Below are positions 6,536 through 21,020 of a stretch of DNA of 56,829 nucleotides, piece after piece. Positions within the stretch are counted from its first letter, which is position 1; the number at the start of each line of letters is the position of its first letter. The stretch is from Pararcticibacter amylolyticus (lineage in GTDB: Bacteria; Bacteroidota; Bacteroidia; Sphingobacteriales; Sphingobacteriaceae): positions 13,303 to 70,131 of the forward strand of contig NZ_QEAS01000027.1 in assembly GCF_003130405.1 (NCBI RefSeq). The letters are read 5' to 3'. The notes under the pieces are model-generated. The model saw nothing but the letters and a program-made list of their open reading frames with translations, was not told the DNA's origin and ran no database searches. Both the position numbers and the translations under genes were made by a program.

Positions 6536-9124
6536 TTAGTTTTTGACCCTGAATCTCAAAACCGTGAAAGAGTAGGGAGCCAGCTCAAGGGTAGTTTTTC
6601 CGCCGATGTCTGTTTGGCTTATAACCGGACGAACATCCCTGTCTGCCGGGTTTCCGCTGATCACTGTTTTTCCTGCTTTCCCGGATTCCGGCCTGTACGT
6701 TTGAAGATCGAGGGATGTGTTTACCGGTACCGGGAGGATATTCACCAGCTTTACCACTATCTCGTTTGTTTTGCTGTCTTTCACAACTGAACAGGCAATG
6801 CGTTTCTTTACCGGGGTGTTGGTGTTGGATAACGATACTGATGAGGGAATATATTGGTCTCCCGCGTTTTGGCCATAAAGCTGCTGCACATAATAGCCAG
6901 TTGTGGGCTTAACTTCTGTATTGTTGAAATAGATCAAATCGGGGTTCCATTGCGTATGATTTTCCCTGGCTAAAAGAGGGGCATAAGAAGCCATCTCTAC
7001 CACGTCACCGTTTCTTTCTAAAGAAGTGAGATAAAGTGCTTCTGCAAGGGCAGTTTCGAGGTTGGTTTTGTTCCCGCCGGGTAGGCTTGCTGCATATTCT
7101 CCGAGGTAAACCTTGGATTTGGAGCGGTCGTAGCGGTCATAGAAGTCCTGGTTGTTGATAAACCATCCGGGCGACTGATAGTAATGTTCATCCATTACCG
7201 GGATATTCAGTTCTGAAGCTATCTTCCAGCCTTCTACGTAATCTGATCCTTCAAAGAACGGGCCTGCCGTGCCGATCACGGTAATTTCCGGATGTGCTTT
7301 TTTCAATGCCTTGTAGATCATCTCAAAACGCTCGCGGAAAACATCAGTGATCATATCTTCATTTCCAATCCCGATGTACTTAAGATTAAAGGGCTTGGGG
7401 TGCCCGGCTTCTGCACGTTTTCTGCCCCAGACCGTATTCGGGGCGCCATTAGCATACTCCACGAGATCTATAATATCCTGGATATAGGCTCCCATTTCGT
7501 CCATTGGAATGCCTCCCTGCTGTCCGCCCCCACCCGTGGAAGAGTTCTGGCAGGGAACTCCTGCAGCAATAATAGGTACAGCTTCAGCTCCTATATCTTC
7601 ACAAAACTGGAAATATTCAAAATATCCAAGTCCCATGCTCTGGTGGTAGTTCCAGATATTGCGGTCGCCTTTGCGGCTCTCGAGCGGACCGATGCTGTTT
7701 TTCCATTTATAGATGTTGGCGATGCCGTCGCCATGGGCCACACAGCCTCCGGGAAAGCGAACAAACCGGGGATGTATATCGGCGATGGTTTGTGCGAGGT
7801 CGGCACGGAGACCGTTTTTCCTGCCTTTAAATGTTTTTTGGGGGAACAGCGATACCATGTCGAGTGCTATGCCGCCGGAACTGAGGGGTTGTATTTCCAG
7901 ACGGGCATCGGATGCATCGGCAGAGGGTATCAGGGTACTCTTTAGAGATTTCCAGCCAGATGCTGAAACTGTTATGGTGTTGCCGGCAAGAACTCCCCTG
8001 CTGTCGCTGACAAGCTTTATCGCCAGTTTGTTTCCTTTTCCCTGTAGCAACCCGGTGAATGCCGAAAAGATATAGGGATCGCCTTTCTTTACAGCGATAC
8101 CATCGTATCCTGTGTTTACGAGTGATGCGCCGGGCTTTTCCACCGTCAGCACCGCATAATGAAGATTATTTGGATGTACAGGCTTCACAGAGTCGATTCT
8201 GAAGCTGGCATTTTCTCCCTTCAGGCTCCAGCAAGAGCTGCTGTTCCATTCCTTGTCCGAATATTTCTTATCCCGGGGGTGATATTCAAAATCCCGGTTC
8301 TGGATCAGTTCTGCATACAGACCACCGTCTGCCCCGTAGTTAATATCTTCAAAAAACACACCTGTCAACATTGTACTAATTTTTTTTGCTTCGCCAGGAT
8401 GAAGCATGATCTCTGCATCTACCGTTTTCAATCCCGCGAAGCGGATTGCATCGTCTTTGGTTGTTTCAGCGTTTTGGATGGCTTTGTATTGCTGAAGGTC
8501 ATACGCTTTTATCAGACCCTCAACAAGGGCCCACGCCACGCGGTGAACCTGACCCTCCACCTTCTCACCCTGAAGAGAAACGGTTGTTCCCAGGTTTGTA
8601 TAAGCTGAGGCTGTTATTTTTTCAACAGGCGTATAGCTTTTGAAATCCTTCGTTTCCGTGCGGAAGTATTCATTTCCTGAATCGGCATAAACAATGGTAT
8701 ACTTACCTGTGCTTTTGCTGTAAGAAATTACGGGGCGAAGTACATTCCTGCCCTTTTGCACATAAGGATAATTCTGAGGCCGCCAGTTAATGAGATCTGC
8801 GGAACTGGCGTGCGCAAACTGCAATGCCCGGTCATTGACGCTCCAAACGATCTGCCAGGTGTCGTTTGCTCCCCTGATCAGGTAAGGGGTATACATCTTT
8901 TTCTCTGCTCCCCAGGTACCGTAGTCGCTCCTGAGAAAAGGGTATCCATTGCCGATTGCAGTCCAGTTCTGCTTGTCAATGCTCCAGGCAAAGCGTAAGC
9001 CATTAGTTCCGTAAGAGAAAAGGTAAAGCGAGTCGGGCTGATCAAGTGCTTTATGGTTGGCGGCAAATACGCACTGGATGAAAGCGGGTAAAAGGAAGCT
9101 GATTATCAGAAATTTCTTCGTCAT
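6536..9124 (-). CDS. Alpha-L-arabinofuranosidase, GH51, with GH43-like N-terminal region
   Basis: An 862-residue secreted protein (signal peptide 1-21). Residues 30-175 resemble a beta-propeller of the GH43 type (LRFAWSIDKQNW, TPYLIRGANDTW, HASSADLINW). From about 245 comes a GH51 module: GVFFEDINYGADGGLYAELIQNRDFEY at its start, a carbohydrate-binding-like insert, the barrel with acid/base Glu589 in IGIGNED and nucleophile Glu676 in YLGEYAA, and the C-terminal beta domain. It should release terminal arabinofuranose from arabinan or arabinoxylan. Its promoter faces away from the SAM-riboswitch operon. The propeller could be a binding or relict catalytic domain. Confidence 0.9.
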   Translation of the reverse strand: MTKKFLIISFLLPAFIQCVFAANHKALDQPDSLYLFSYGTNGLRFAWSIDKQNWTAIGNGYPFLRSDYGTWGAEKKMYTPYLIRGANDTWQIVWSVNDRALQFAHASSADLINWRPQNYPYVQKGRNVLRPVISYSKSTGKYTIVYADSGNEYFRTETKDFKSYTPVEKITASAYTNLGTTVSLQGEKVEGQVHRVAWALVEGLIKAYDLQQYKAIQNAETTKDDAIRFAGLKTVDAEIMLHPGEAKKISTMLTGVFFEDINYGADGGLYAELIQNRDFEYHPRDKKYSDKEWNSSSCWSLKGENASFRIDSVKPVHPNNLHYAVLTVEKPGASLVNTGYDGIAVKKGDPYIFSAFTGLLQGKGNKLAIKLVSDSRGVLAGNTITVSASGWKSLKSTLIPSADASDARLEIQPLSSGGIALDMVSLFPQKTFKGRKNGLRADLAQTIADIHPRFVRFPGGCVAHGDGIANIYKWKNSIGPLESRKGDRNIWNYHQSMGLGYFEYFQFCEDIGAEAVPIIAAGVPCQNSSTGGGGQQGGIPMDEMGAYIQDIIDLVEYANGAPNTVWGRKRAEAGHPKPFNLKYIGIGNEDMITDVFRERFEMIYKALKKAHPEITVIGTAGPFFEGSDYVEGWKIASELNIPVMDEHYYQSPGWFINNQDFYDRYDRSKSKVYLGEYAASLPGGNKTNLETALAEALYLTSLERNGDVVEMASYAPLLARENHTQWNPDLIYFNNTEVKPTTGYYVQQLYGQNAGDQYIPSSVSLSNTNTPVKKRIACSVVKDSKTNEIVVKLVNILPVPVNTSLDLQTYRPESGKAGKTVISGNPADRDVRPVISQTDIGGKTTLELAPYSFTVLRFRVKN

Positions 9125-9171: not shown

Positions 9172-9201
9172 CAAAAATAATATTAAATGTCAATTTTACA
9201 A
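9172..9201 (-). promoter_or_regulatory. Candidate promoter of the GH51 gene
   Basis: Read on the minus strand, TTG (9201-9199) is followed after exactly 19 bases by TATTTTTG (9179-9172), a good match to the Bacteroidetes housekeeping pattern TTG-N19-TAnnTTTG. The start codon is at 9124, giving a leader of roughly 40 bases. Confidence 0.6.
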
Positions 9202-9316
9202 TTAGTAGATGTAAATTAAAAGCAGACCGGATGGGGCAGAGCGTTGCAGAGTTTCGCCTCTATTTAACCCTGGCATTCCTGCTTTTTAGTTTTAATAGAA
9301 TATTTTAAATAGTCTA

Positions 9317-9346
9317 TTGACTTTGTAGATTATTGTTTTACCTTTG
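9317..9346 (+). promoter_or_regulatory. Candidate promoter of the SAM-riboswitch operon
   Basis: TTG at 9317-9319 and TACCTTTG at 9339-9346 are separated by 19 bases and match the Bacteroidetes promoter pattern. Transcription would begin about 9352, just before the riboswitch, so the RNA would carry a structured leader of about 500 nucleotides before the peptidase start at 9852. Confidence 0.65.
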
Positions 9347-9364
9347 TCCAGTGTTCTTTTAATA

Positions 9365-9461
9365 CTTATCCAGAAAGACGGAGGGAAAGGCCCTGTGAAG
9401 TCTTAGCAACCTGTAAATATTCAAGGTGCTAATTCCTGTCCGCAACAGCGGAAGAGATAAG
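9365..9461 (+). ncRNA. SAM-I riboswitch (S-box)
   Basis: The P1 stem is CTTATC (9365-9370) with GATAAG (9456-9461). Between them are the S-box core elements in order: AGACGGAGGGAAAGGCCCTGTGAAG (kink-turn and P2 region), TTAGCAACC, AAGGTGCTAATTCC, and a small P4 hairpin around GTCCGCAACAGCGGAA. These are the conserved features of the S-adenosylmethionine-binding class I riboswitch. AGGTTG at 9460-9465, overlapping the 3' strand of P1, is fully complementary to CAACCT at 9407-9412 inside the aptamer, so ligand-free RNA could refold there; this switch mechanism is inference. No T-run terminator follows directly. Confidence 0.93.
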
Positions 9462-9506
9462 GTTGGTATGTCAATCTGAATAAGTTTAGTATAAATCAAA
9501 ACAGTT

Positions 9507-9656
9507 ATGGAAATTTATTTAGACATTGTTGCAAATGAACGTTCAGCCTCCGGGCGACAGTCTGCCGCTTACCGGCTTTTTGTAGATCATCAGACCTCTT
9601 CCTCTAAAACCTCTATCTCTCCAGTCAGCTGTTGTAAGCGAATGTGTTGTTGCTAA
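9507..9656 (+). CDS. 49-residue leader ORF with Cys-rich end, after the SAM riboswitch
   Basis: A short ORF in the leader, starting ATG at 9507 and ending TAA at 9654-9656. The peptide starts MEIYLDIVANERSASG, has a Ser/Thr-rich middle (TSSSKTSIS) and ends in SCCKRMCCC: five cysteines in the last eight residues. There is no signal peptide. A 7-bp hairpin starts at the last Cys codon and contains the stop codon, and a second, stronger hairpin follows 30 bases later. That layout resembles an amino-acid-sensing leader peptide, where ribosome pausing on Cys codons would decide the downstream RNA fold. It could instead be a small metal-binding protein or chance. The known precedent for cysteine leader ORFs is in mycobacteria; for this group it is inference. 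Confidence 0.55.
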   Translation: MEIYLDIVANERSASGRQSAAYRLFVDHQTSSSKTSISPVSCCKRMCCC

Positions 9657-9668
9657 TCACTATTAGCA
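9651..9668 (+). promoter_or_regulatory. Small hairpin overlapping the leader-ORF stop codon
   Basis: TGCTAAT (9651-9657), loop CACT, ATTAGCA (9662-9668): a perfect 7-bp stem whose first arm is the final Cys codon plus the stop codon. A ribosome paused on the CysCysCys run would prevent it from forming. A role as the first element of an attenuator is inferred. Confidence 0.5.
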
Positions 9669-9685
9669 TACTTTAATTTCTGCAA

Positions 9686-9714
9686 TGCCTGTCCCCGTTC
9701 GGGACGTTCAGGCA
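9686..9714 (+). terminator. Attenuator-like hairpin upstream of the M28 peptidase gene
   Basis: TGCCTGTCCC (9686-9695) pairs with GGGAC (9701-9705) and, after a 4-base bulge, AGGCA (9710-9714): 10 bp in two blocks with loop CGTTC. The following stretch CTACTTGTACATTTTATT is T-rich but broken, so it is a weak intrinsic terminator or a processing or translational control hairpin. Confidence 0.5.
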
Positions 9715-9740
9715 CTACTTGTACATTTTATTAATATCAG

Positions 9741-9829
9741 AGCAGGATTGTCCGGTTGCGGATAGGTATACTCCTGTCGTATGCATGGTATTTTATATCA
9801 AGTCTCCGTGCTGCACCTGTAATCCTGCT
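9741..9829 (+). repeat. Long-range inverted repeat before the peptidase start codon
   Basis: AGCAGGATT (9741-9749) and AATCCTGCT (9821-9829) are perfect complements 71 bases apart, ending 22 bases before the ATG at 9852. In the mRNA they could close a large stem next to the translation start. The function is unknown. Confidence 0.55.
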
Positions 9830-9851
9830 GTTCACAACATTTAAACTTTCG

Positions 9852-12095
9852 ATGAAAAGAAGTATATACACACTTTTATTTTGTTTTGCCCTGTCATTCA
9901 CCTCATTCGGACAGAGTCATATAAACGGATTTCCGGGCCAGTCATCACAGGCGCAGCTGCAACTGGAAGACAAGTTCGATAAACTGTTAAGTAAGAAAAA
10001 CATCGGAGAAGCTATCAGGGAGTATTCGGCAAAGCCCCACCATCTCGGATCTGCACAGGGAAAGATCGTTGCTGAATCTATACGCAGGCGGTTTGCAAGC
10101 TACGGATGGGATGCCAGGATCGAAACCTACCAGGTTCTTTTTCCCACGCCGAAGAACCGTTTGCTGGAGCTTATTGCACCCACGAAGTTCACAGCTCTCC
10201 TGAAGGAGCCGGCATTCCCGGAAGATGCGACTTCGGGGCAGGAAGGGCAGTTGCCTACCTACAATGCCTGGGGAGCAGATGGCGACGTCACCGGTCAACT
10301 GGTATTTGTAAATTTTGGATTGCCGGAAGATTACGAAGTCTTGAAGCGTTACGGCATCGACATAAAAGGGAAAATTGTGATTGCCCGTTATGGACGCTCC
10401 TGGAGGGGAATAAAGCCTAAGATTGCATGGGAGCACGGAGCAATTGGCTGTATCATCTATTCAGACCCGAAAGAGGACGGGTATTACCAGGGAGACGTGT
10501 ATCCAAAAGGACCGTTTAAGAACGAACATACGGTGCAGAGAGGGTCGGTAATGGATATGGTGGTTTACCCCGGAGATCCTCTTACCCCGAACGAAGGAGC
10601 GACAGAAAAGGCAAAACGGATCGACCGGAGTGAAGCCCCTACGATTCTTAAGATTCCCGTTCTGCCCATCAGTTATCACGATGCACAGCCTCTTCTGGCA
10701 GCCCTGGGCGGCCCCGTTGCTCCGGCTGAATGGCGCGGAGCCCTTCCGCTCACCTACAGGATCGGGCCGGGACAGGCACAGGTGCATCTGAAAGTAGAGT
10801 CGAACTGGGATATTGTACCTGCTTATAATGTGATAGCGAAGATTAAAGGTTCTGTTTATCCCGATGAGTGGGTGATTCGCGGGAATCATCACGATGCCTG
10901 GGTAAACGGCGCCGATGATCCTGTAAGCGGTCTTGCTGCTTTACTGGAAGAGGCGAAAGCGATAGGAACCCTTTACAAATCGGGGATCAGGCCTAAAAGG
11001 ACATTGGTCTATTGCGCCTGGGACGGAGAGGAACAGTCATTACTAGGCTCCACCGAATGGGCAGAGTATCATGCTGCGGAATTGCAGAAAAAAGCAGTTG
11101 CGTATATTAATTCGGACGGGAACAGCAGGGGCTTCCTCGGTGCCGGAGGTTCGCATGCCCTGGAAAACCTGGTAGACGGAATTTCCCGTAGTGTCAAAGA
11201 TCCGCAGACAGGAGCAACGGTGTACGAGCGGCTGAAAGCAAGGGATATCGTAAGAGCAGGCACCGCTAAGCAGAAAAAAGAGCTCATAAAGAAGGATACC
11301 CTGGCCTTGTCGGCCCTGGGAACGGGCTCTGATTATTCCGCATTTCTTCAGCATCTTGGCATCCCTTCTCTTAACCTGGGCTATGGAGGAGAAGATGAAG
11401 GGGGCGACTACCATTCCATTTATGATTCCTATGATGATTACGTCAGGTTCAAAGATTCAGATTTCAGTTATGGGGTGACATTATCTCAGACTGCGGGCCG
11501 TGCAGCTCTGCGCCTCGCAAACGCGGATGTGCTTCCTTTCGACTTTACAAGTCTTCGCCGCCGGATTTCAGGGTATGTGCAGGAGCTTAGCCAACTGGCT
11601 GATCAGCTCCGTGAAAGTTATGCTGTTCAGAATACCCTGGTCAGCGATAAGTATTACCAGCTTGCTGCTGACCCGCGTGAGAAGCTGCAAATTCCGGAAC
11701 TTAAACCGGAAGTACCAAAGTTTGAGTTCGGGAGCCTGAAGAGTGCCCTGGACAGCCTTGATGCCGCGGCCATTGCATTGTCCGGCAAGACACAGGCCGC
11801 CGGAGGGAACCCAAGAGCGCGGGCAGCCCTTAACCAGCTTCTGTTCCAGGCGGAGAAAAGCCTTTTAAGCGATGAAGGCCTGCCTCATCGTCCATGGTAC
11901 CGCCATACTATTTACGCACCGGGTTTCTACACAGGTTATGGGGTTAAAACACTGCCCGGTATCAGGGAAGCTATTGAGCAGGGGAAATGGGATGAAGCCA
12001 AACATCAAACCGAAGTAGTGACCGCAGCCATTCTGCGTTTAGCGCGTCAGCTTGGTAAAATCAATCAACAGCAATACTTATCACAAGTAAAATGA
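9852..12095 (+). CDS. PSMA-like M28 peptidase (glutamate carboxypeptidase II family)
   Basis: The ATG at 9852 is chosen because it gives a clean signal peptide (MKRSIYTLLFCFALSFTSFGQ); an in-frame upstream extension does not. The roughly 747-residue product has all three parts of the human PSMA type: a protease-associated domain (around GKIVIARYGRSWRGIK), the M28 zinc-peptidase domain, and a C-terminal transferrin-receptor-like dimerization domain. Zinc-site segments are GNHHDAWVNGADDP, WDGEE with the catalytic Glu, NSDG and DYHS. The family removes C-terminal glutamate or other acidic residues from small peptides. It overlaps susC by four bases (ATGA) and stands under the SAM riboswitch, suggesting it trims sulfur-containing or gamma-glutamyl peptides. 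Confidence 0.9.
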   Translation: MKRSIYTLLFCFALSFTSFGQSHINGFPGQSSQAQLQLEDKFDKLLSKKNIGEAIREYSAKPHHLGSAQGKIVAESIRRRFASYGWDARIETYQVLFPTPKNRLLELIAPTKFTALLKEPAFPEDATSGQEGQLPTYNAWGADGDVTGQLVFVNFGLPEDYEVLKRYGIDIKGKIVIARYGRSWRGIKPKIAWEHGAIGCIIYSDPKEDGYYQGDVYPKGPFKNEHTVQRGSVMDMVVYPGDPLTPNEGATEKAKRIDRSEAPTILKIPVLPISYHDAQPLLAALGGPVAPAEWRGALPLTYRIGPGQAQVHLKVESNWDIVPAYNVIAKIKGSVYPDEWVIRGNHHDAWVNGADDPVSGLAALLEEAKAIGTLYKSGIRPKRTLVYCAWDGEEQSLLGSTEWAEYHAAELQKKAVAYINSDGNSRGFLGAGGSHALENLVDGISRSVKDPQTGATVYERLKARDIVRAGTAKQKKELIKKDTLALSALGTGSDYSAFLQHLGIPSLNLGYGGEDEGGDYHSIYDSYDDYVRFKDSDFSYGVTLSQTAGRAALRLANADVLPFDFTSLRRRISGYVQELSQLADQLRESYAVQNTLVSDKYYQLAADPREKLQIPELKPEVPKFEFGSLKSALDSLDAAAIALSGKTQAAGGNPRARAALNQLLFQAEKSLLSDEGLPHRPWYRHTIYAPGFYTGYGVKTLPGIREAIEQGKWDEAKHQTEVVTAAILRLARQLGKINQQQYLSQVK

Positions 12096-15000
12096 AATTT
12101 CTTTATCTATTCATATTGCTATCGTTTGCCATCCGGGTGCAAACGTATGGCCAGCAGCGCCGTATTACAGGCGTTGTCACACAGGAAGGAACCGGGCAGA
12201 CATTGCCGGGCGTGAGCGTTTCGGTAAAGGGGCAGAAAAAGGGGACCTCTACAGCGCCCGACGGGCGGTATTCCATAACGGTCAACAATGATGCAGCAAC
12301 GCTTGTCTTTTCTTTTATTGGCTTTGAAGCAAAGCAGGTGCCGGCCGGAACAGGGGTACTGAATGTACAGCTGAAGTCGCAGGCCAATGCACTGAATGAA
12401 GTGGTCGTTGTAGCCTACGGAACCGCCAATAAAGCAACCTATACGGGATCGGCTTCGGTCGTGAGCGCCGCAGATATTGCCAAACAGCCGGTATCGAATA
12501 TCAGCAGGACGTTGCAGGGAACAGTTCCAGGAGTCCAGTCCATCGCAAGTGCCGGGCAGCCCGGGAGCGAAGCGACGATCCGCCTGAGGGGAATAGGTTC
12601 GGTGAATGCATCCAGTGATCCGCTGTATGTCGTGGACGGGATTCCCTATTCAGGGAATATCAATTCGATCAACCCGGCGGATGTTCAGTCCATCTCTGTG
12701 CTGAAGGATGCCGCTGCCAGTGCCCTCTACGGAAGCCGTGGCGCCAATGGGGTGATCATTGTCACCACCAAGCAGGGAAAACTTAATGCGAAGCCGGTGG
12801 TGTCGCTGAATGCCAGTACAGGCGTAGCATCGCGGGCAGTAGACGACTATGATTACGTGAACACCGGCCAGTATTTCGAACTGGAATGGGAAGCTATCCG
12901 GAATCAGCAGCTTGACCAGGGAAAGACTGCCCAGCAGGCTGCCGAATATGCCAGCCGGGAACTGGTGGGTACCCTGAAGGTAAACCCGTATGGCCCGGAT
13001 TATTCGCAGCCGGTGGGAACAGATGGAAAGCTGGTTGCAGGCGCCGTTCCATTGTGGAATGACGACTGGAACGAGTCGCTGAACAGGACGGGAGTAAGAC
13101 GGCAGGTAGACCTGGGTATAAACGGGGGCGGTAACGAAAGCCGGTATTTCGTATCCGGCGGATATCTCCAGGACAAGGGTTTTATTATTGGTTCCCAGTT
13201 TGAGCGGTTTAACGCGAGGGTGAACTACAATACCCGTGTGAATAAATGGTTTGAAGCTGGCCTGAACATCGCGGCCTCTTCCACAGATCAGGATGCGCCA
13301 CCCCAGACAGACAGTAACCAGGGCAACTTTGCGAACTTTGGCCGCCTGGTTTCGAATATTTACCCGGTATACGAACGGAATGCCGACGGCACCTATAAGC
13401 TGGATTCGCAGGGTCAAAGGATATATGATTTTGGAAATTACCGTCCCAGTGCCGCGGCAACGGGAAATAATCTTCTCGGGGGAGCAGACCTGAATAAATA
13501 TAAGAATAAGCTGGACGCTCTTTTAATGCGCGCGAACCTGCAATTTAACCTGCTGCCAGGTTTAAAGCTTAAAAGCAGCGTGAACACGGACTATAACAAC
13601 CGGCTTAACCATTCATATACCAATCCGCTTTTTGGCGGGGGCATCAGTACGGGAGGTTCCGTATCAAAAAGCAGTGCCCGCACAGTGGCATACACGGTGA
13701 ACAACCTGCTGGACTATACTTTTACCTTCGGCAACCGCAACAACGTGAATTTGCTGGGAGGGCAGGAAGTGTATGTATTTAATGTATCCTCTCTTTCAGG
13801 CAGCCGCAGTAACTTTGGTTTTGGCGGAAAAGATGAGCCATCAGCGGCTTCGCTGCTCAACAGTTTCACCGGCAGTGCCGATAATTACAAGCTGTCGAGC
13901 TTCCTCGGGAAGCTGGAGTATAATTTTGACCACCGCTATTTCCTGTCTGCCAGTTTCAGGCGTGATGGTTCGTCGCGCTTTAGTCCCGACTCGAGGTGGG
14001 GTAATTTCTGGTCGGTCGGAGCATCGTGGAATGCCACATCAGAGACCTTTCTGAAAGATTCGGACTGGCTCAGCAACCTGACGCTGAGGAGCAGCTATGG
14101 TGCGCAGGGCAACGATAACCTTGGAAGTTACTATGCTTACCAGGGGCTCTATTCTATTTATAACAGCCTTGGGCAGGCTGGTTTGATTACGTCCAGGCTT
14201 CCTACTCCCGGGTTAAAATGGGAAAGTAACCTGAATTTTAATGCGGGACTTGATTTCGGACTCTTCAGCAACCGCGTTACTGGTACTTTCGAAGTATACC
14301 AGAGAAAGTCGAAGGATCTGTTGTTCAGCCGCCCGCTTGCACCTTCGCTTGGCTTCGGCGCTATCGACGATAATATCGGTACTCTTACCAATAAGGGTTT
14401 TGAAGGATCGCTGCAGGTGACACCGGTGTTGTCTGAGAAGTTCCGCTGGGACCTGGGCGTTAATTTCTCCCACTTTAAGAACAAGATCACCAGGCTGCCG
14501 CAGAAAGAGATCACGACAGGCGCCATCGGGCAGCTGGGGTCAACGAAGAAGCTGACTGTCGGAAGTTCGGTATACGACTTTTACATCCGTGAATGGGCAG
14601 GAGTGGACCCTGCAACAGGAAGCCCGCTCTGGTACAAGAACGTATATGAAACAGACGCTCAGGGGAATAAGGTGATTACCGGCCGCACCACGGTTAAAAC
14701 GACTGCTGACGCAGACATTTATTATTCAGGAAGCGCTTTGCCCGATCTTACCGGCGGTATCACCAATACGTTCCGGTTCAGCGGGTTAGAGCTTTCTTTT
14801 CTCCTGGCCTATAATCTCGGCGGAAAGATCCTCGACCTGGATGAGCTGATGGTGGTGCATGTGGGTGAAAATACCGGCCGCACCTGGGGAACACAGGTGC
14901 TGAACCGGTGGACGCCGGAGAACACTGCCACCGATGTTCCGAGACTGACCACCAATCCGGCTACAACGTGGAACAGCATCTCCACCCGGTTCCTGTACGA

Positions 15001-15226
15001 TGCCACGTATGCGAGACTGAAAAATCTGAGCCTCAGCTACCAGCTTCCGAAGGGTTTTATTAAAAAGACCGGGCTGGCAGACGTGAGAGTGTATACCAGG
15101 GGCGAGAACCTCCTGACATTTTACGGGCACAAGGGGATGGATCCCGAACAGGCGGTTGACGGAGTGACGTATTACCGTTACCCGGCTCAGAAAACAATAA
15201 CTTTTGGATTTGATGTTTCATTTTAA
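12092..15226 (+). CDS. SusC-type TonB-dependent outer-membrane transporter (sulfur operon)
   Basis: A 1044-residue transporter with signal peptide (1-21), an N-terminal carboxypeptidase-regulatory-like domain (about 25-105, ITGVVTQEGTGQTLPGVSV), a TonB-box-like stretch NEVVVVAYGT, a plug domain with PLYVVDGIPYSG and VLKDAAASALYGSRGANGVI, and a beta-barrel ending in a phenylalanine (FGFDVSF). There is no STN domain, so it is not expected to signal to FecR. The start overlaps the peptidase stop and the SusD gene follows within 10 bases. Being under SAM control, it probably imports a sulfur-bearing peptide or similar ligand rather than a glycan. Confidence 0.95.
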   Translation: MKFLYLFILLSFAIRVQTYGQQRRITGVVTQEGTGQTLPGVSVSVKGQKKGTSTAPDGRYSITVNNDAATLVFSFIGFEAKQVPAGTGVLNVQLKSQANALNEVVVVAYGTANKATYTGSASVVSAADIAKQPVSNISRTLQGTVPGVQSIASAGQPGSEATIRLRGIGSVNASSDPLYVVDGIPYSGNINSINPADVQSISVLKDAAASALYGSRGANGVIIVTTKQGKLNAKPVVSLNASTGVASRAVDDYDYVNTGQYFELEWEAIRNQQLDQGKTAQQAAEYASRELVGTLKVNPYGPDYSQPVGTDGKLVAGAVPLWNDDWNESLNRTGVRRQVDLGINGGGNESRYFVSGGYLQDKGFIIGSQFERFNARVNYNTRVNKWFEAGLNIAASSTDQDAPPQTDSNQGNFANFGRLVSNIYPVYERNADGTYKLDSQGQRIYDFGNYRPSAAATGNNLLGGADLNKYKNKLDALLMRANLQFNLLPGLKLKSSVNTDYNNRLNHSYTNPLFGGGISTGGSVSKSSARTVAYTVNNLLDYTFTFGNRNNVNLLGGQEVYVFNVSSLSGSRSNFGFGGKDEPSAASLLNSFTGSADNYKLSSFLGKLEYNFDHRYFLSASFRRDGSSRFSPDSRWGNFWSVGASWNATSETFLKDSDWLSNLTLRSSYGAQGNDNLGSYYAYQGLYSIYNSLGQAGLITSRLPTPGLKWESNLNFNAGLDFGLFSNRVTGTFEVYQRKSKDLLFSRPLAPSLGFGAIDDNIGTLTNKGFEGSLQVTPVLSEKFRWDLGVNFSHFKNKITRLPQKEITTGAIGQLGSTKKLTVGSSVYDFYIREWAGVDPATGSPLWYKNVYETDAQGNKVITGRTTVKTTADADIYYSGSALPDLTGGITNTFRFSGLELSFLLAYNLGGKILDLDELMVVHVGENTGRTWGTQVLNRWTPENTATDVPRLTTNPATTWNSISTRFLYDATYARLKNLSLSYQLPKGFIKKTGLADVRVYTRGENLLTFYGHKGMDPEQAVDGVTYYRYPAQKTITFGFDVSF

Positions 15227-15236
15227 TTCCAGCGAG

Positions 15237-16715
15237 ATGAAAGCTTTTAAAATATTTCTTTATTCTGCCCTTATCACCTTATCGCTCTCAGTAAGCTCCT
15301 GCAGCGACTCTTTCTTCGAGACGTCGCCTGCGGGGGACCTTACAGGAGATGAAACTTTTGCTTCCACCAAGAACATCGATGCCCTGGTGAACGGTACCCT
15401 CCGCTACCTGATGGAGTCGAGCACTTCGCAGGACAATCCGGGTCTGGGGGCTATCATTCTTACTCAGGAGGTAATGGGCGATGACGCCATTGCCCGCGAT
15501 GGCGTGTATGGCTTCCGCGATTCTTATCCTTATAAGGATCCCTACGATAATACTACCAGGAGGGCTTTGTTTTTCTGGACACTCCAGTATAAGGTGATCG
15601 ACAACTGTAATAATATCCTGGCGAATACCGATGCTGCTGTGGGAACGGATGCCGAGAAGAACTATCTGAAAGGGCAGGCCCTGGCTCTAAGGGGATTTGT
15701 GTATCTCAATCTTGTACGGCAATACCAGTTTACGTATGCAAAAGATAAAAATGCAAAGGCCGTGCCGGTATATACCGAGCCAACCAGCCCGGCTTCCCAG
15801 CCGAAGCCGAGGGCTACTGTGGAACAGGTGTACCAGCAGGTGATCTCAGACCTTACCCAGGCAGAAAGTCTGCTGAATGGCTTTGTCAGGTCGGTGAAGA
15901 ACCGCCCGGATGTAAATGTCGTGAGGGGGCTTCTCGCCCGTACTTACCTGACGATGGAGAACTGGACCGCCGCCGCGGAAAAAGCGCGCCAGGCCAGGAC
16001 CGGCTACCCGATCATGGAGGCACAGCAGTATCTGCAAGGTTTCAACGATGTGTCGAACACAGAATGGATCTGGGGACATCCGCAGACGGCAGATCAAAAC
16101 CTGGGCGGCGCCTCCTACTTTGCTTACATCGACGTTACGCCAAGCACCGGCTACCGCAGCATCATGCCGGATCCTTATTTCCGGAACCTTTTCGCCGACG
16201 GAGATATCAGGAAGAGTTTATTCGAGGTGGTAACCAGTTCCTCCGACCCTATGTACCGCTGGATCAAATACAAGAAGTTTGTGAACAAGACGGACAAGTC
16301 CGCCCACATCGTTTTGATGAGATCTTCTGAAATGGCGTTGATAGAAGCGGAAAGCAAGGCGCGGCTTCATGATCCTCAGGGAGCAGTATCGGCCCTCAAC
16401 GAACTTCGCGTGAAGAGAGGCCTGGCTACCCTGTCAGCCGCAGACTTTACTGAAACTGCACTCATAGAGGAGATCCTGACCGAACGGCGCCGGGAATTAT
16501 GGGGAGAAGGCTTCCGTCTGCCCGACCTGCTCCGCCTGCAAAGGGCCCCGGTACGGAAGGAATCGACAGAGACCTTTCTTGTAAATGGAACGAATGTACT
16601 GATCAAGGGGCACTACGTTATCAAGTTTACCGACGGAACCAGCCTCGTTCCTAATAGTCCCTATTATTTGTTCCCGATCCCTGATAATGAAATTAAGACA
16701 AACCCCAATCTATAA
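15237..16715 (+). CDS. SusD/RagB family outer-membrane lipoprotein (sulfur operon)
   Basis: The ATG at 15237 gives a lipoprotein signal (MKAFKIFLYSALITLSLSVSSC) with the lipobox Cys; an earlier in-frame start lies within susC. The mature part has the SusD pattern: ETSPAGDLTGDETFAS near the start, helical TPR-like repeats, the segment LKGQALALRGFVYLNLVRQY, and a C-terminal region EERRRELWGEGFRLPDLLRLQ. It forms the surface lid over its SusC partner and captures the ligand. It is the third gene of the SAM-riboswitch operon. Confidence 0.93.
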   Translation: MKAFKIFLYSALITLSLSVSSCSDSFFETSPAGDLTGDETFASTKNIDALVNGTLRYLMESSTSQDNPGLGAIILTQEVMGDDAIARDGVYGFRDSYPYKDPYDNTTRRALFFWTLQYKVIDNCNNILANTDAAVGTDAEKNYLKGQALALRGFVYLNLVRQYQFTYAKDKNAKAVPVYTEPTSPASQPKPRATVEQVYQQVISDLTQAESLLNGFVRSVKNRPDVNVVRGLLARTYLTMENWTAAAEKARQARTGYPIMEAQQYLQGFNDVSNTEWIWGHPQTADQNLGGASYFAYIDVTPSTGYRSIMPDPYFRNLFADGDIRKSLFEVVTSSSDPMYRWIKYKKFVNKTDKSAHIVLMRSSEMALIEAESKARLHDPQGAVSALNELRVKRGLATLSAADFTETALIEEILTERRRELWGEGFRLPDLLRLQRAPVRKESTETFLVNGTNVLIKGHYVIKFTDGTSLVPNSPYYLFPIPDNEIKTNPNL

Positions 16716-16724
16716 GTAAAAGAG

Positions 16725-17744
16725 ATGAAATCTTTCGTATTATTCACGACAGCCGTTTTGCTTGGCACTACCGTATCTGGCCAAACAAGCAGTCCCCTTC
16801 AGCTTAAGGGGACCACTTTGGGTATAAAAGAGGGTAAAGTATACCTTCAGAAATTTGAGAATAAAATGTTCTTCACAATCGATTCTGCCAGCATTAAAGA
16901 CGGCAGGTTCAGCTTCGCAACTAAGGTGAAGCTGCCGGAGCTTTACGGACTGACGCTGGACAGGAACAAAAACCCTTTCTATATTTTTCTTGAGAACGTT
17001 CCTGTGTCTGTCAGTCTCGATTCTGCATCTTACTACAGGAATTCTAAAGTAAGCGGATCAAAAGCCCAGGATATCTTTACTGCATACAAAGAGAACCAGA
17101 GGGAGGTAAAGATCGATGAGTTTATTAAGCAGAACCCCTCGTCCATTGTCTCTGCATATGTTTTGTACCGCGATTTTTCTTACCGGCTGACGGCTGACCA
17201 GATCCAGTCGAATATCAATTTGCTGGCTCCGGCGCTTCAGAAAACACAATATGTGTCGGTATTGAAAGAGCTGATCCCTGTATTGAGCAGGGTAGGAGTG
17301 GGCAATAAAGCGATTGATTTTACAGCGAACGATCCGGACGGAAAGCCGGTGAAGCTGTCGGATCATTTCGGTAAATACCTTCTTGTTGACTTCTGGGCCG
17401 GTTGGTGCGGTCCATGCCGCCGGGAGAACCCCCATGTTGTAGCTGCCTATAACAAATACAAAGACAAGGGATTTGATGTGCTGGGTGTTTCACTGGATAA
17501 AACGAAGGAAAGCTGGGTAAAGGCCATTGCGGATGATCAATTGACCTGGACGCATGTTTCAGACCTGGCTTTCTGGAACAGCGCCCCTGCAAAGCTGTAT
17601 GGCGTGAGGGCTATTCCTGCCAACTTTCTGATTGACCCGAAAGGAGTCATCATCGCCCGGAACCTGAGGGGGAAGGATCTGGATGAAAAGCTTGCGGAGC
17701 TTCTGAGTGGTTCGGCTTCAGTGGGAAGCGGGGCTTCTCAATAG
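16725..17744 (+). CDS. Periplasmic TlpA-like thioredoxin with DUF4369-like N-terminus
   Basis: A 339-residue secreted protein (signal peptide 1-19). Residues 22-130 resemble the DUF4369 domain found before thioredoxins in Bacteroidetes, and residues 195-330 are an AhpC/TSA-TlpA-type thioredoxin fold with the active site Cys228-Gly-Pro-Cys231 in WAGWCGPCRRENP and the cis-proline segment AIPANFLID. It starts nine bases after the SusD stop, the last gene of the riboswitch operon. A periplasmic reductant next to a peptidase and importer could reduce disulfides of cystine or glutathione-like peptides. That link is inference. Confidence 0.92.
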   Translation: MKSFVLFTTAVLLGTTVSGQTSSPLQLKGTTLGIKEGKVYLQKFENKMFFTIDSASIKDGRFSFATKVKLPELYGLTLDRNKNPFYIFLENVPVSVSLDSASYYRNSKVSGSKAQDIFTAYKENQREVKIDEFIKQNPSSIVSAYVLYRDFSYRLTADQIQSNINLLAPALQKTQYVSVLKELIPVLSRVGVGNKAIDFTANDPDGKPVKLSDHFGKYLLVDFWAGWCGPCRRENPHVVAAYNKYKDKGFDVLGVSLDKTKESWVKAIADDQLTWTHVSDLAFWNSAPAKLYGVRAIPANFLIDPKGVIIARNLRGKDLDEKLAELLSGSASVGSGASQ

Positions 17745-17890: not shown

Positions 17891-18544
17891 TTACTGATGC
17901 GCCTTCAGCCATTCCAGCCTGCGCTGATCCGGTAAATGTTTTACAGTAAAGTTCTCGAATTTGGCAACAAAGCCGTCGCCATCAGGACAGGCAGCCATTA
18001 AACCCACCATTACAGGAGTATTGTCCTGGAGGGGGGCATTCCTGGTCATGATATAGTTTTTGTCGTCCAGCGAATAGAAGATCTCGATGGCATCGAGGCG
18101 GCGGACTACTTTGATCCAGATGAATGGAGGCGCCTTGTCGAGTGTCGTTACACTCCAGTCGCTCTTTTCGTGAGTGACGACGGTGCTGACGTTAAACTTC
18201 CCGTCTACAAATTCTACCCCGGTCTTGATATAGTTCTTATGGTCAGTCCTGATCATCAGACCCATCTGGTCAAAACGGGCTTTATAAGCTCCTGTAAGTT
18301 TTACTTTTGCTTCAAACTCTCCGCCGTAAGTGGTGTAATAGAAGGGGGCGTCATCGACTGTGAAGCCATAATGGGATATGCGCCAGTAATCGCTTTTGGG
18401 CGTAACGGTCATGGTCAGTGCGTTGTTTTTCACTTCCCATTTTTCCGGTTCATTGTACCATTGCATTTTTTCTAAAGTCTGGGCCTTTACTGTGTTAAGA
18501 TGAAGAGAAACAGCAATGCTGAAGAGAAAGAAGAGTGGTTTCAT
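17891..18544 (-). CDS. Secreted DUF1349 (concanavalin-like) protein
   Basis: A 217-residue protein with a signal peptide (1-21) followed by a single beta-sandwich domain of the DUF1349 type: KSDYWRISHYGFTVDDAPFYY, FEAKVKLTGAYKARFDQMGLMIR, ACPDGDGFVAKFENFTV. The family has a concanavalin A-like fold and is common next to glycan-degradation genes; it is probably a carbohydrate-binding or accessory protein. It lies beyond a terminator from the GH3 gene, so it is likely transcribed on its own. Confidence 0.85.
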   Translation of the reverse strand: MKPLFFLFSIAVSLHLNTVKAQTLEKMQWYNEPEKWEVKNNALTMTVTPKSDYWRISHYGFTVDDAPFYYTTYGGEFEAKVKLTGAYKARFDQMGLMIRTDHKNYIKTGVEFVDGKFNVSTVVTHEKSDWSVTTLDKAPPFIWIKVVRRLDAIEIFYSLDDKNYIMTRNAPLQDNTPVMVGLMAACPDGDGFVAKFENFTVKHLPDQRRLEWLKAHQ

Positions 18545-18635: not shown

Positions 18636-20873
18636 TTAATTTAGCCTGAACCCTGTTTTGGTTCTGACATCGGAGGATGATGCTCCGATGACGGCTTCAA
18701 AATCTCCTGGTTCGGCTACCCATTCGTGTTTAGCGGCATCAAAGAAGCTTAATGCAGATTTGTCTATCGTGAAAGACACTGTTTTCTGCTCGCCTGGTTT
18801 GAGGGATACTTTCTCAAATCCTTTCAGTTCTTTTACCGGGCGGGCGACGCTTGATTTAAGGTCGCTGATATAAAGCTGTACAATTTCTTCTCCTTCCCTT
18901 GATCCGGTATTTTTCACATCTACAGAGAAGGTGATTTTATCGGAAGGGGAGATGGTGTTTTTATCAGCTTTCACTTTTCCGTACTGGAACGATGTGTAGC
19001 TCAGGCCGTGGCCGAAGGCAAACAAAGGCTTCACCTTTTTTGCTTCAGCCCAGCGGTATCCAACAAAAATTCCTTCTTTATAGGTGATTTCCTTGTCGCC
19101 GGGGAATTCGCCTGCGTTGTGAGCGCCATTATCTGTTAATTTTACAGGGAATGTGAAAGGCAGTTTTCCGGAAGGATTTACATCGCCTGTCAGTACCGAA
19201 GCAATGGCGTTTCCGGTTTCGGAGCCAAGGAACCAGCCCTGTACAATGGCAGGAACTTTGTCAACCCATGGCATTGCTACTGCATTTCCCGAAATGTTCA
19301 CTACGACCAGGTTCTTGTTCACCTTCGCCAATTCGCTGATCACGGCGTCCTGGTTGTAAGGCAGTCCGAGGCTCTTGCGGTCATTGCCTTCAGAATCCTG
19401 GAAGTCGCTTTTGTTGAGACCTCCGAAGAATATTACCAGATCAGCATTTTTTGCTGTGGCAACGGCTTCTGCCAGGATTTCGGAAGCAGGGCGCTTATCT
19501 GCCAGGTTTTGCCCGGTAGCTACCCCGTTATAGTTGCCGGTAGTATCTCCTACATAACCCCGTGCAAAGACGATCTCAGCTTGCTTGCCAATTCTGTTTT
19601 TTAAGCCTTCAAGCGGTGAAATTTCGTAGCGGGCCTTCAGTGAAGAACTCCCTCCGCCAACGGTCATCATTTTTATGGCGTTTTCACCGATTACTGCGAT
19701 CCTTTTTACTTTACTTAAATTCACTGGCAGTACGTTGCCTTTGTTCTTCAGCAGGACAATTCCTTCAGCCGCTATTTTGCGTGCTGCCAGTGCGTGTTCT
19801 TCCGTTGCGAAAGATCCGTAAGGGCGGTTCTTATTCATGGTGGTGAGGAACGACAAGCGGAGGAGACGACGTACTTTTTCATCCAGTTCTTTGGTGCCTA
19901 CCTGGCCTGAATTGATGAGCTTCAGGTAAGGATTGGCGAGGTAATAGTTGTCGTAAGCGCTGCTCTTTCCTTCGGTGAGCCCGTTTGTCCAGGATCCGAA
20001 TTCAAGGTCGAGGCCATTGAATATCGCCTGGCGTGTATCGTGAACACCACCCCAGTCGGATACCACAACCCCCTTAAAGCCCCATTCCTTGCGCAGGATG
20101 TCATTCAGCAGGTATTCATTGTGGCAGCAATGCTGTCCTTTATACAGGTTGTAAGACCCCATGATAGACCATGCATCTCCTTCCTGTACGGCTGCTTTGA
20201 AAGCGGGCAGGTAAATTTCGTAAAGAGTGCGGTCGTCGACGTTTACATTATAGCCGTGACGGTTTGTTTCCTGGTTGTTGAGAGCAAAATGCTTTACGCA
20301 GGCAGCTACGCCGTTTTGCTGTACCCCTTTAATGTAGGGAACGACCATCTTCGAAGAGAGGAAGGGATCTTCTCCCATATATTCAAAGTTACGGCCGTTG
20401 AGAGGACTCCGGTAGATGTTTACACCGGGCCCCAGCAGGATATTCTTGTTCCGGTACCGGGCTTCTTCCCCCAGTGATTTTCCATACAGGCCCGCCATAT
20501 CCTTATTCCAGGTAGCGGCCAGGCAGGTAAGTGCAGGGAATGCTGTACATGAGTCATTCGTCCAGCCAGCCTGAGACCATTCGTCCCACAATACTTCAGG
20601 ACGGATGCCATGAGGCCCGTCGGTTGCCCAGTTATCAGGGATGCCGAGCCGGGGTACTCCGGGAGAACTGAATTTCGATTGAGCATGGATAATGGCAATC
20701 TTTTCTTTGAGTGTCATTTTACTCAGTGCGTCCTCAATTCGGGCATCGATGGGTTTACTGTCATCAAGATAAACAGGGAGCTGGCTTTGAGCAGTTGCCT
20801 GCTGGAAACTTAGCGTGATGGTGACGACAAGGAGACTGCAGATGGTGCAGGCTCTGGCGTACATTTTTTTCAT
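18636..20873 (-). CDS. Beta-glucosidase-like enzyme, GH3
   Basis: Start taken at 20873, five codons inside the longest ORF, because it begins MKKMYARACTICSLL and gives a standard signal peptide ending QQATAQ. About 745 residues. The GH3 barrel has the nucleophile Asp273 in VVSDWGGVH, with KHFALNNQETNRHGYNV preceding. The second alpha/beta domain follows (GEGIVLLKNKGNVLP-like), and a C-terminal fibronectin III-like domain ends the protein. It should cleave terminal beta-linked glucose or xylose from oligosaccharides in the periplasm. It follows the DUF6377 regulator gene on the same strand. Confidence 0.93.
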   Translation of the reverse strand: MKKMYARACTICSLLVVTITLSFQQATAQSQLPVYLDDSKPIDARIEDALSKMTLKEKIAIIHAQSKFSSPGVPRLGIPDNWATDGPHGIRPEVLWDEWSQAGWTNDSCTAFPALTCLAATWNKDMAGLYGKSLGEEARYRNKNILLGPGVNIYRSPLNGRNFEYMGEDPFLSSKMVVPYIKGVQQNGVAACVKHFALNNQETNRHGYNVNVDDRTLYEIYLPAFKAAVQEGDAWSIMGSYNLYKGQHCCHNEYLLNDILRKEWGFKGVVVSDWGGVHDTRQAIFNGLDLEFGSWTNGLTEGKSSAYDNYYLANPYLKLINSGQVGTKELDEKVRRLLRLSFLTTMNKNRPYGSFATEEHALAARKIAAEGIVLLKNKGNVLPVNLSKVKRIAVIGENAIKMMTVGGGSSSLKARYEISPLEGLKNRIGKQAEIVFARGYVGDTTGNYNGVATGQNLADKRPASEILAEAVATAKNADLVIFFGGLNKSDFQDSEGNDRKSLGLPYNQDAVISELAKVNKNLVVVNISGNAVAMPWVDKVPAIVQGWFLGSETGNAIASVLTGDVNPSGKLPFTFPVKLTDNGAHNAGEFPGDKEITYKEGIFVGYRWAEAKKVKPLFAFGHGLSYTSFQYGKVKADKNTISPSDKITFSVDVKNTGSREGEEIVQLYISDLKSSVARPVKELKGFEKVSLKPGEQKTVSFTIDKSALSFFDAAKHEWVAEPGDFEAVIGASSSDVRTKTGFRLN

Positions 20874-21020
20874 AATTGAACAGTACATGATTTATAGATT
20901 TACATATTTGGCCGGCTAAACAAGCCGTTTATTCTTTCAGAATGTAAAGTTAACAGGAGCGGGGGATCAGAAAATGTGAAGTATGAAAAAAGTAGTGTTT
21001 TTAAGTTGTAGTGTGTTGTT

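Follow-up and report, generated by a model that had tools for sequence, protein, structure and literature searches.

Introduction

A riboswitch-type RNA joined to a leader peptide is known from mgtA, whose leader combines a Mg2+-sensing RNA with the MgtL peptide, and RagAB of Porphyromonas is a peptide importer; we know of no control of RagAB by an S-box, i.e. the S-adenosylmethionine (SAM)-I riboswitch, or by a cysteine (Cys) leader. Cys leaders as such have been described in other bacteria. They occur in actinobacteria, those of mycobacteria being without conserved terminators according to PMC1262725, and Canestrari et al. 2020 is cited on actinobacterial cysteine leader peptides in the excerpt of PMC9094748. 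In Rhodobacterales, the uORFC-8-2 motif before cysS has tandem Cys codons in its leader and a terminator, as stated in the excerpt of PMC8632094. Leader-peptide attenuators before amino-acid operons are reported for a flavobacterium in the excerpt of PMC9723704, whose supplementary lists may hold Cys leaders. Here, we analyze an operon within 56,829 nt of DNA from Pararcticibacter amylolyticus (the whole stretch is hereafter called the window), in which an S-box is followed by a short open reading frame (ORF) ending in Cys codons and by genes for a peptidase, a SusC/SusD importer pair (SusCD) and a thiol reductase. In open-access main texts, we found neither a riboswitch stacked with a Cys leader, nor S-box, Cys leader and Bacteroidota in combination, nor S-box control of SusCD importers.

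Results

An S-box and a Cys-ended ORF precede a SusCD import operon

Comparison of the window with Rfam yielded one match above threshold, a full-length SAM-I riboswitch aptamer (RF00162) at positions 9363–9463 of the forward strand (85.1 bits, E 9.1e-19; gathering score 44.4). It was re-detected by a model built here, whose training set included the window copy, and its identity is near certain. An original prediction, made from the sequence alone, had placed such a riboswitch ahead of four genes encoding a peptidase, a SusC/SusD pair and a periplasmic thiol reductase; the aptamer is corroborated by its score and full-length match, and all four genes were confirmed by domain matches. The 388-nt leader between aptamer end and peptidase start harbors an element that had escaped this prediction: an ORF with ATG start, 49 codons and a stop (9507–9656, forward strand), the product of which ends in SCCKRMCCC. 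Five of its last eight residues are Cys, which was matched by none of 3000 dinucleotide shuffles, and its layout is that of a cysteine leader-peptide attenuator, namely a short ORF with the regulatory codons beside the stop. No family for this leader was found in Rfam (above threshold), NCBIfam or Pfam.

The best reading of this arrangement is that SAM and cysteine, perhaps also methionine, are sensed in series and that importer, hydrolase and reductase would be made only if both are low. Judging from the sequence, we lean towards the view that the operon serves the import of scavenged sulfur and is controlled by two RNA sensors in series.

Two hairpins are associated with the end of the window leader. 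A small hairpin (TGCTAAT-CACT-ATTAGCA, 9651–9668, forward strand; 7 bp, loop of 4) encloses the final Cys codon together with the stop; it is followed by TACTTTAATTT, a T-rich tract, and represents a weak candidate attenuator stem. A GC-rich hairpin with a poor T tail follows 3' of the stop at 9686–9714 on the same strand. The segment 3' of the leader stop is more stable than its shuffles in the window (z -2.38) and on average in the 26 metY leaders described below (mean z -1.54); the leader ORFs themselves also lean to the stable side in the metY set (mean z -0.82), the window value being 0.38.

Cys-ended leaders recur between S-boxes and metY

A survey of 41 genomes located 76 S-box places, 74 of which were used, all except G004:C1 (31 bits; later within L225) and G025:C16 (later L291 and L373); handles of this kind designate genomes, contigs and loci. 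Genes were classified by sequence motifs, and an ORF between S-box and gene was counted if it carried at least two Cys among its last six residues. Such ORFs were present at 14 of the 16 metY places, where 0.44 were expected from shuffles, and at 2 of 4 metX places, but at none of the 31 metH places; metH leaders are shorter than metY leaders, which the shuffle expectation takes into account. They were likewise missing before cysteine-desulfurase-like genes (0/4), homoserine dehydrogenase (0/3), metE (0/2) and at the one place without gene. Three were found among 13 'other' places, a class into which one metY locus possessing a leader (L025) and a fragment of metH (L033) were sorted.

Among 91 family genomes, 63 contained a close metY. 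From these, the 30 best loci were taken, of which 26 had an S-box and four (L298–L301) had none; with L291 from another family added, 27 S-box metY loci were obtained. In 26 of them the leader has two or more Cys among its last eight residues, the exception being L318 with one Cys, and in 25 of these 26 leaders the start codon lies 7–11 nt 3' of the aptamer. In the last ten residues of the 27 peptides, Cys accounts for 48% and Met for 14%, compared to 1.9% and 1.2% in the remainder, whereby Cys had been selected for in collecting the leaders and Met had not. The Cys codons are mixed, with a TGT:TGC ratio of 72:67.

Among 149 genomes drawn from across the class, 21 had a close metY, and 14 of the 19 newly taken loci contained an S-box. 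The position of metY could be assigned in 13 S-box loci, nine of which had a clear Cys-ended leader, while L363 and L367 lacked one and L362 and L372 were borderline. The nine leaders belong to families f1, f2, f15, f31, f41 and f49, and four of them (L359, L360, L364, L373) concern genes already contained in the earlier metY sets. Such leaders thereby occur 5' of metY in five further families of the class. The 27 metY loci and the class-wide loci also partly repeat genes of the 74-place survey.

A poly-Cys pattern, TGYTGYTGYTGYTRA, was tried as a genome-wide finder and rejected, most matches being background-like (20 stretches among the matches listed) and several lacking an in-frame ATG. Its matches led to leaders in L291 and in L281 (G001:C4:124000-136000, both strands). 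In the latter, two more poly-Cys leaders lie near an importer of the L125 type described below, one 5' of a TonB receptor and one 5' of a PhyH-type dioxygenase; there is no S-box match within L281. At L122 (G009:C35:164000-173700), an S-box stands 5' of a gene resembling pyridoxal-phosphate enzymes, and four consecutive Cys codons followed by a stop are located about 80 nt 5' of the next gene, a TonB receptor. At L117 (G006:C54), an S-box (495–592) is found directly 5' of a tRNA-Cys(GCA) gene (651–722). Other tRNA-Cys genes from two genomes of the same genus (L380, L384, L385) have no S-box, and L117 is thus a single case so far.

A second SusCD family displays S-box, leader and terminator-like hairpins

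A second type of SusC, represented by L125, occurs in 49 of 201 family genomes, and 30 loci were taken. Of these, 24 have an S-box; 18, including 13 of the S-box loci, have a leader whose last eight residues contain two or more Cys. The shuffle control in this family covers three loci, with 0 (L125), 0 (L009) and 14 (L018) of 3000 shuffles equaling the leader. The order at L332, L333, L336, L344 and L358 is S-box, reductase-like gene, Cys leader and SusC; the reductase-like gene was assigned by Pfam for the locus of L344 (as L162). Thiol-reductase genes accompany both importer families.

The 11 leaders of genus g14, presumably Pedobacter and hence called Pedobacter-type, share a 24-residue peptide (e.g. 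MKKTDELKAIDANLSAYFRMRMPC in L342), which in some has a single terminal Cys. All 11 have a hairpin with a T-rich tail (CCTGTTA...TAACAGG, in one case with TAACGGG) whose 5' arm includes the final Cys codon together with the stop, and each of these hairpins reached p 0.05 or less in comparison to shuffles. A stricter terminator rule, applied to 25 leaders, was passed by 9 of the 11. Where the leader starts within 160 nt of the S-box, which applies to 17 leaders, 8 have a terminator-like hairpin in the interval, according to a rule without shuffle control. An independent scan of L342 returned one terminator-like site, on the S-box side, versus 0.4 expected. As far as sequence can tell, the Pedobacter-type leaders are the clearest view of the presumed two-step switch.

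The gene set recurs behind S-boxes in relatives of the window importer

SusD relatives of the window importer were present in 77 of 399 family genomes. Out of 40 importer loci taken, 14 had an S-box, that of L225 being weak (38 bits). The 19 loci with SusD identities of about 61% or more (L205–L223) included 12 with an S-box, giving, with the window, 13 operons that combine this type of importer with an S-box. Their gene order varies: the S-box is followed by peptidase-susC-susD-reductase in the window, L211 and L213 (L035 and L211 are apparently the same record, with equal matches), by reductase-peptidase-susC-susD in L205–L208 and L215, by susC-susD-reductase in L210 and L212, and by M20-type hydrolase-reductase-susC-susD in L214, L221 and L222. 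L209 shows the second of these orders without an S-box match. Pfam assignments were made for the M20 gene of L214 and for the reductase encoded first in L205, their counterparts being labelled by resemblance. In Pedobacter loci L090, L102 and L113, an S-box precedes the peptidase, another SusC with a further outer-membrane gene, and a reductase (assigned by Pfam in L090).

A Cys-ended leader is present in 6 of the 13 operons (window, L205–L208 and L210), and in L205–L208 it is placed between the reductase-like gene and the peptidase. The Cys count of the leader was matched by 5 (L205), 36 (L206) and 34 (L207) of 3000 shuffles; L206 and L207 are near relatives of each other. The host genome has a second S-box SusCD locus (L003/L156, G000:C2:112757) with a weak leader ending in ACCKSPQASPMIC and a DUF1684 gene 3' of susD. 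The peptidase was rejected as a marker of the system, since 4 of the 80 peptidase loci inspected had an S-box (the best 80 of at least 583 relatives).

Judged from these gene orders, the set is not unique and recurs with exchangeable genes for the predicted hydrolase and reductase. The claim that no system of this make-up had been described is accordingly borne out in part: none was found in the literature searched, but the search for the set behind S-boxes in other Bacteroidota uncovered 12 orthologous S-box operons in relatives.

Operon proteins and genomic context

The first gene (9852–12095, forward strand, as are all four) encodes an M28B-type, GCPII-like metallopeptidase of 747 aa with PA, Peptidase_M28 and TFR_dimer domains (Pfam), the nearest matches being GCPIII and GCPII (E about 1e-98 to 1e-96). 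Positions of GCPII were assigned by hand from the GCPII alignment in 12 peptidases (window, L205–L209, L211, L213, L215, L090, L102, L113). The zinc ligands, the catalytic Glu, Arg210, Tyr552 and Tyr700 are conserved in all 12, whereas Asn257 is replaced by Ser and Lys699 by Gly in each of them, and no Lys or Arg is present at 699, 463, 534 or 536. These GCPII residues line the S1' and S1 pockets (PMC9976286), and acidic specificity is tied to Lys699 and the arginine patch in the excerpt of PMC10794815, where Asn257-to-Ser is described as conservative. On these pocket residues, the proposal that the peptidase cuts off C-terminal acidic residues was rejected; the enzyme should be a metallo-hydrolase of small peptides with a specificity other than acidic.

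The SusC/RagA-type TonB-dependent outer-membrane transporter (12092–15226) exceeds the TIGR04056 cut-off (827 vs 368 bits). Its top match among solved structures is RagA (E 2.4e-114), in a near tie with SusC homolog 8aa4 (E 7.5e-114), so that its cargo is not fixed by the match. The SusD/RagB-type surface lipoprotein (15237–16715) carries PF07980 and PF14322 above cut-off and was also matched to structures; the closest solved SusD proteins are carbohydrate binding according to the depositors' names. The last gene (16725–17744) encodes a DUF4369 and AhpC-TSA/thioredoxin protein (Pfam) with one CxxC motif, CGPC at 228. It does not reach the cut-off of the NCBIfam family ResA (89 vs 170 bits) and has the exported thioredoxin fold and CxxC motif of TlpA/ResA-like thiol-disulfide reductases, export being derived from a signal peptide read by eye. 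Signal-peptide-like N-termini were recognized by eye in all four proteins, with a lipoprotein-type SSC in SusD. Peptidase gene and susC overlap by 4 nt, and the susC/susD and susD/reductase gaps are about 10 nt each; therefore, the four genes likely form a single operon.

Directly 5' of the aptamer, a promoter-like element (9317–9346, forward strand) was noted by eye, consisting of TTG at 9317–9319 and a TAnnTTTG box (TACCTTTG, 9339–9346); TAnnTTTG is given as the flavobacterial sigma-A consensus in the excerpt of PMC9723704. The flanking genes at 6536–9124 and 17891–18544 are on the strand opposite to the operon, and glycoside hydrolases (Pfam) are located nearby, an arabinofuranosidase at 6536–9124 and a GH3 enzyme at 18636–20888. 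The host genome is a 6.3-Mb draft with the window on contig C80, and an S-box search of the whole genome gave five matches. It encodes two PAPS-reductase-family proteins as well as NIR_SIR-family proteins on two contigs, and no Cys leader was seen in the 1.5 kb before its sulfur-assimilation matches (L325, L327, L328).

Discussion

In the mechanism that we propose, the S-box would bind SAM, as expected from its family, and keep the operon off when SAM is high. In transcripts extending past the S-box, a ribosome would translate the short leader ending in Cys codons. When Cys-tRNA is scarce, it would stall at these codons and cover the 5' arm of the downstream hairpin, so that transcription or translation continues; with ample cysteine, it would complete the leader and the operon would remain off. 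SusD may then bind peptides at the surface and SusC move them through the outer membrane, the TlpA-like protein would reduce disulfides, and the M28 peptidase, or an M20-type hydrolase in some relatives, would trim the peptides, leading to uptake of cysteine and methionine. We regard it as very probable that the leader is a real cysteine sensor and as likely that ribosome stalling is the mechanism. That the cargo consists of sulfur-bearing peptides, as suggested by control, hydrolase and reductase together, has about an even chance. A response of the operon to sulfur shortage, already put forward in the original prediction, has gained plausibility from the Cys-codon leader and from the repeated finding of this gene set 3' of S-boxes in relatives. 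For the class as a whole, we judge it somewhat probable that leaders with Cys/Met codons are linked to the S-boxes of metY and of several SusCD importer families, forming a serial AND gate for SAM and amino-acid supply and marking uncharted outer-membrane importers dedicated to organic sulfur.

Several observations weigh against two sensors in series. The S-box/leader sites come from related genomes and are not independent. Base changes among 11 homologous leaders are distributed over the codon positions as 379/326/329, without third-position excess, although their synonymous fraction is 0.34 versus 0.21 expected, and L346, one of the 11, reads the N-terminal part in a shifted frame. A hairpin overlapping the stop reaches p 0.05 in 3 of 26 metY leaders and in 1 of 14 other SusC/peptidase leaders, and a stop-overlapping terminator was rejected as a general rule on these counts. 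In the window, the corresponding hairpin at 9651–9668 has p 0.055 versus shuffles, its local fold is not unusual (z -0.70), and a terminator scan of 9200–9900 gave no terminator-like site. Shuffles equaled the leaders of L208 (246 of 3000) and L210 (191 of 3000) at rates near chance, and because of these counts both are not convincing alone; for L003 (818 of 3000) the rate is at chance. No Cys leader is present in 7 of the 13 S-box operons of the window importer type or in the distant S-box relatives L225 and L239 (SusD 44–46%). Finally, the presence of PAPS-reductase-type and sulfite-reductase-type genes indicates that organic sulfur is probably not obligatory for the host, and the operon would probably supplement sulfate use rather than replace it.

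The operons without leader and the weak window hairpin also fit regulation by the S-box alone, the Cys-ended ORF of the window being fortuitous or a relic. This appears improbable to us: no shuffle equaled the window leader, leaders are strongly associated with the S-boxes of metY and SusC and with none at metH, and at L205–L208, L332, L333, L336, L344 and L358 they precede peptidase or SusC despite the reductase-like gene that comes after the S-box. A leader that works by nascent-chain arrest, with a terminal Arg-Met motif sensing SAM, Met or another small molecule in place of a shortage of Cys-tRNA, is an unlikely explanation too, albeit one with more in its favor. Arg-Met recurs near many leader ends (CCKRMCCC in the window, 9636–9653; FRMRMPC in L342; FRMPRFICCCCCYC in L297) and may hint at such arrest or at methionine sensing, Met is enriched in the tails though not selected for, and several Pedobacter-type leaders have a single Cys. 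Runs of four to six Cys codons, the mixed use of TGT and TGC and the varied neighbors resemble codon-count sensing instead.

Import of a glycan or another non-peptide nutrient, with the S-box reporting methylation or growth state and not sulfur, would agree with the depositors' names of the closest solved SusD proteins, with the neighboring arabinofuranosidase and GH3 genes, and with a putative GH43-like gene, recognized by look, about 1.3 kb 3' of SusD in L018 of the second family. This possibility was set aside as rather doubtful because the glycoside hydrolases of the window are on the opposite strand; moreover, the genes in the S-box block of the 12 orthologs are, by similarity, those for peptidase, M20-type hydrolase, reductase, susC and susD. 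By far the least probable alternative is a PSMA-like enzyme that strips C-terminal Glu or Asp from glutathione-like or acidic peptides. Membership in the GCPII family, the retention of Arg210, Tyr552, Tyr700 and all zinc ligands and the conservative nature of the Asn257-to-Ser exchange (PMC10794815, excerpt) would be in line with it, but Lys699 is Gly in 12 of 12 peptidases, no patch arginine remains, and an M20-type gene (Pfam on L214) replaces the peptidase in three orthologous operons.

If the proposed reading of the locus, with sulfur scavenging controlled by two RNA sensors, is right, the RNA would indicate which class of substrate is taken up by importers for which the cargo can otherwise be only a guess. 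It would also show how these bacteria join two sulfur signals and provide a sequence signature for finding sulfur-scavenging loci.

Each part of the system belongs to a known kind; the combination of riboswitch, Cys leader and importer was not met in the literature searched. The mgtA leader likewise pairs a riboswitch-type RNA with a leader peptide, but differs in ligands, codons and phylum. RagAB shares the SusC/SusD architecture, and a peptide cargo is likely here as well. uORFC-8-2 has tandem Cys codons in its leader too; it possesses two such codons, acts as a single sensor and targets a tRNA synthetase. The actinobacterial Cys leaders are similar in being short ORFs with runs of Cys codons beside the stop, 5' of sulfur genes, whereas no riboswitch in front of them is mentioned in the source excerpts; here, the leader is stacked behind an S-box, belongs to another phylum and is found also before outer-membrane importers. 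With the S-box regulon, the locus has in common the RF00162 aptamer, which in relatives precedes metH, metY, metX and metE; it differs in that the S-box stands before SusCD importers with peptidase and reductase and is followed by a candidate second, translational sensor.

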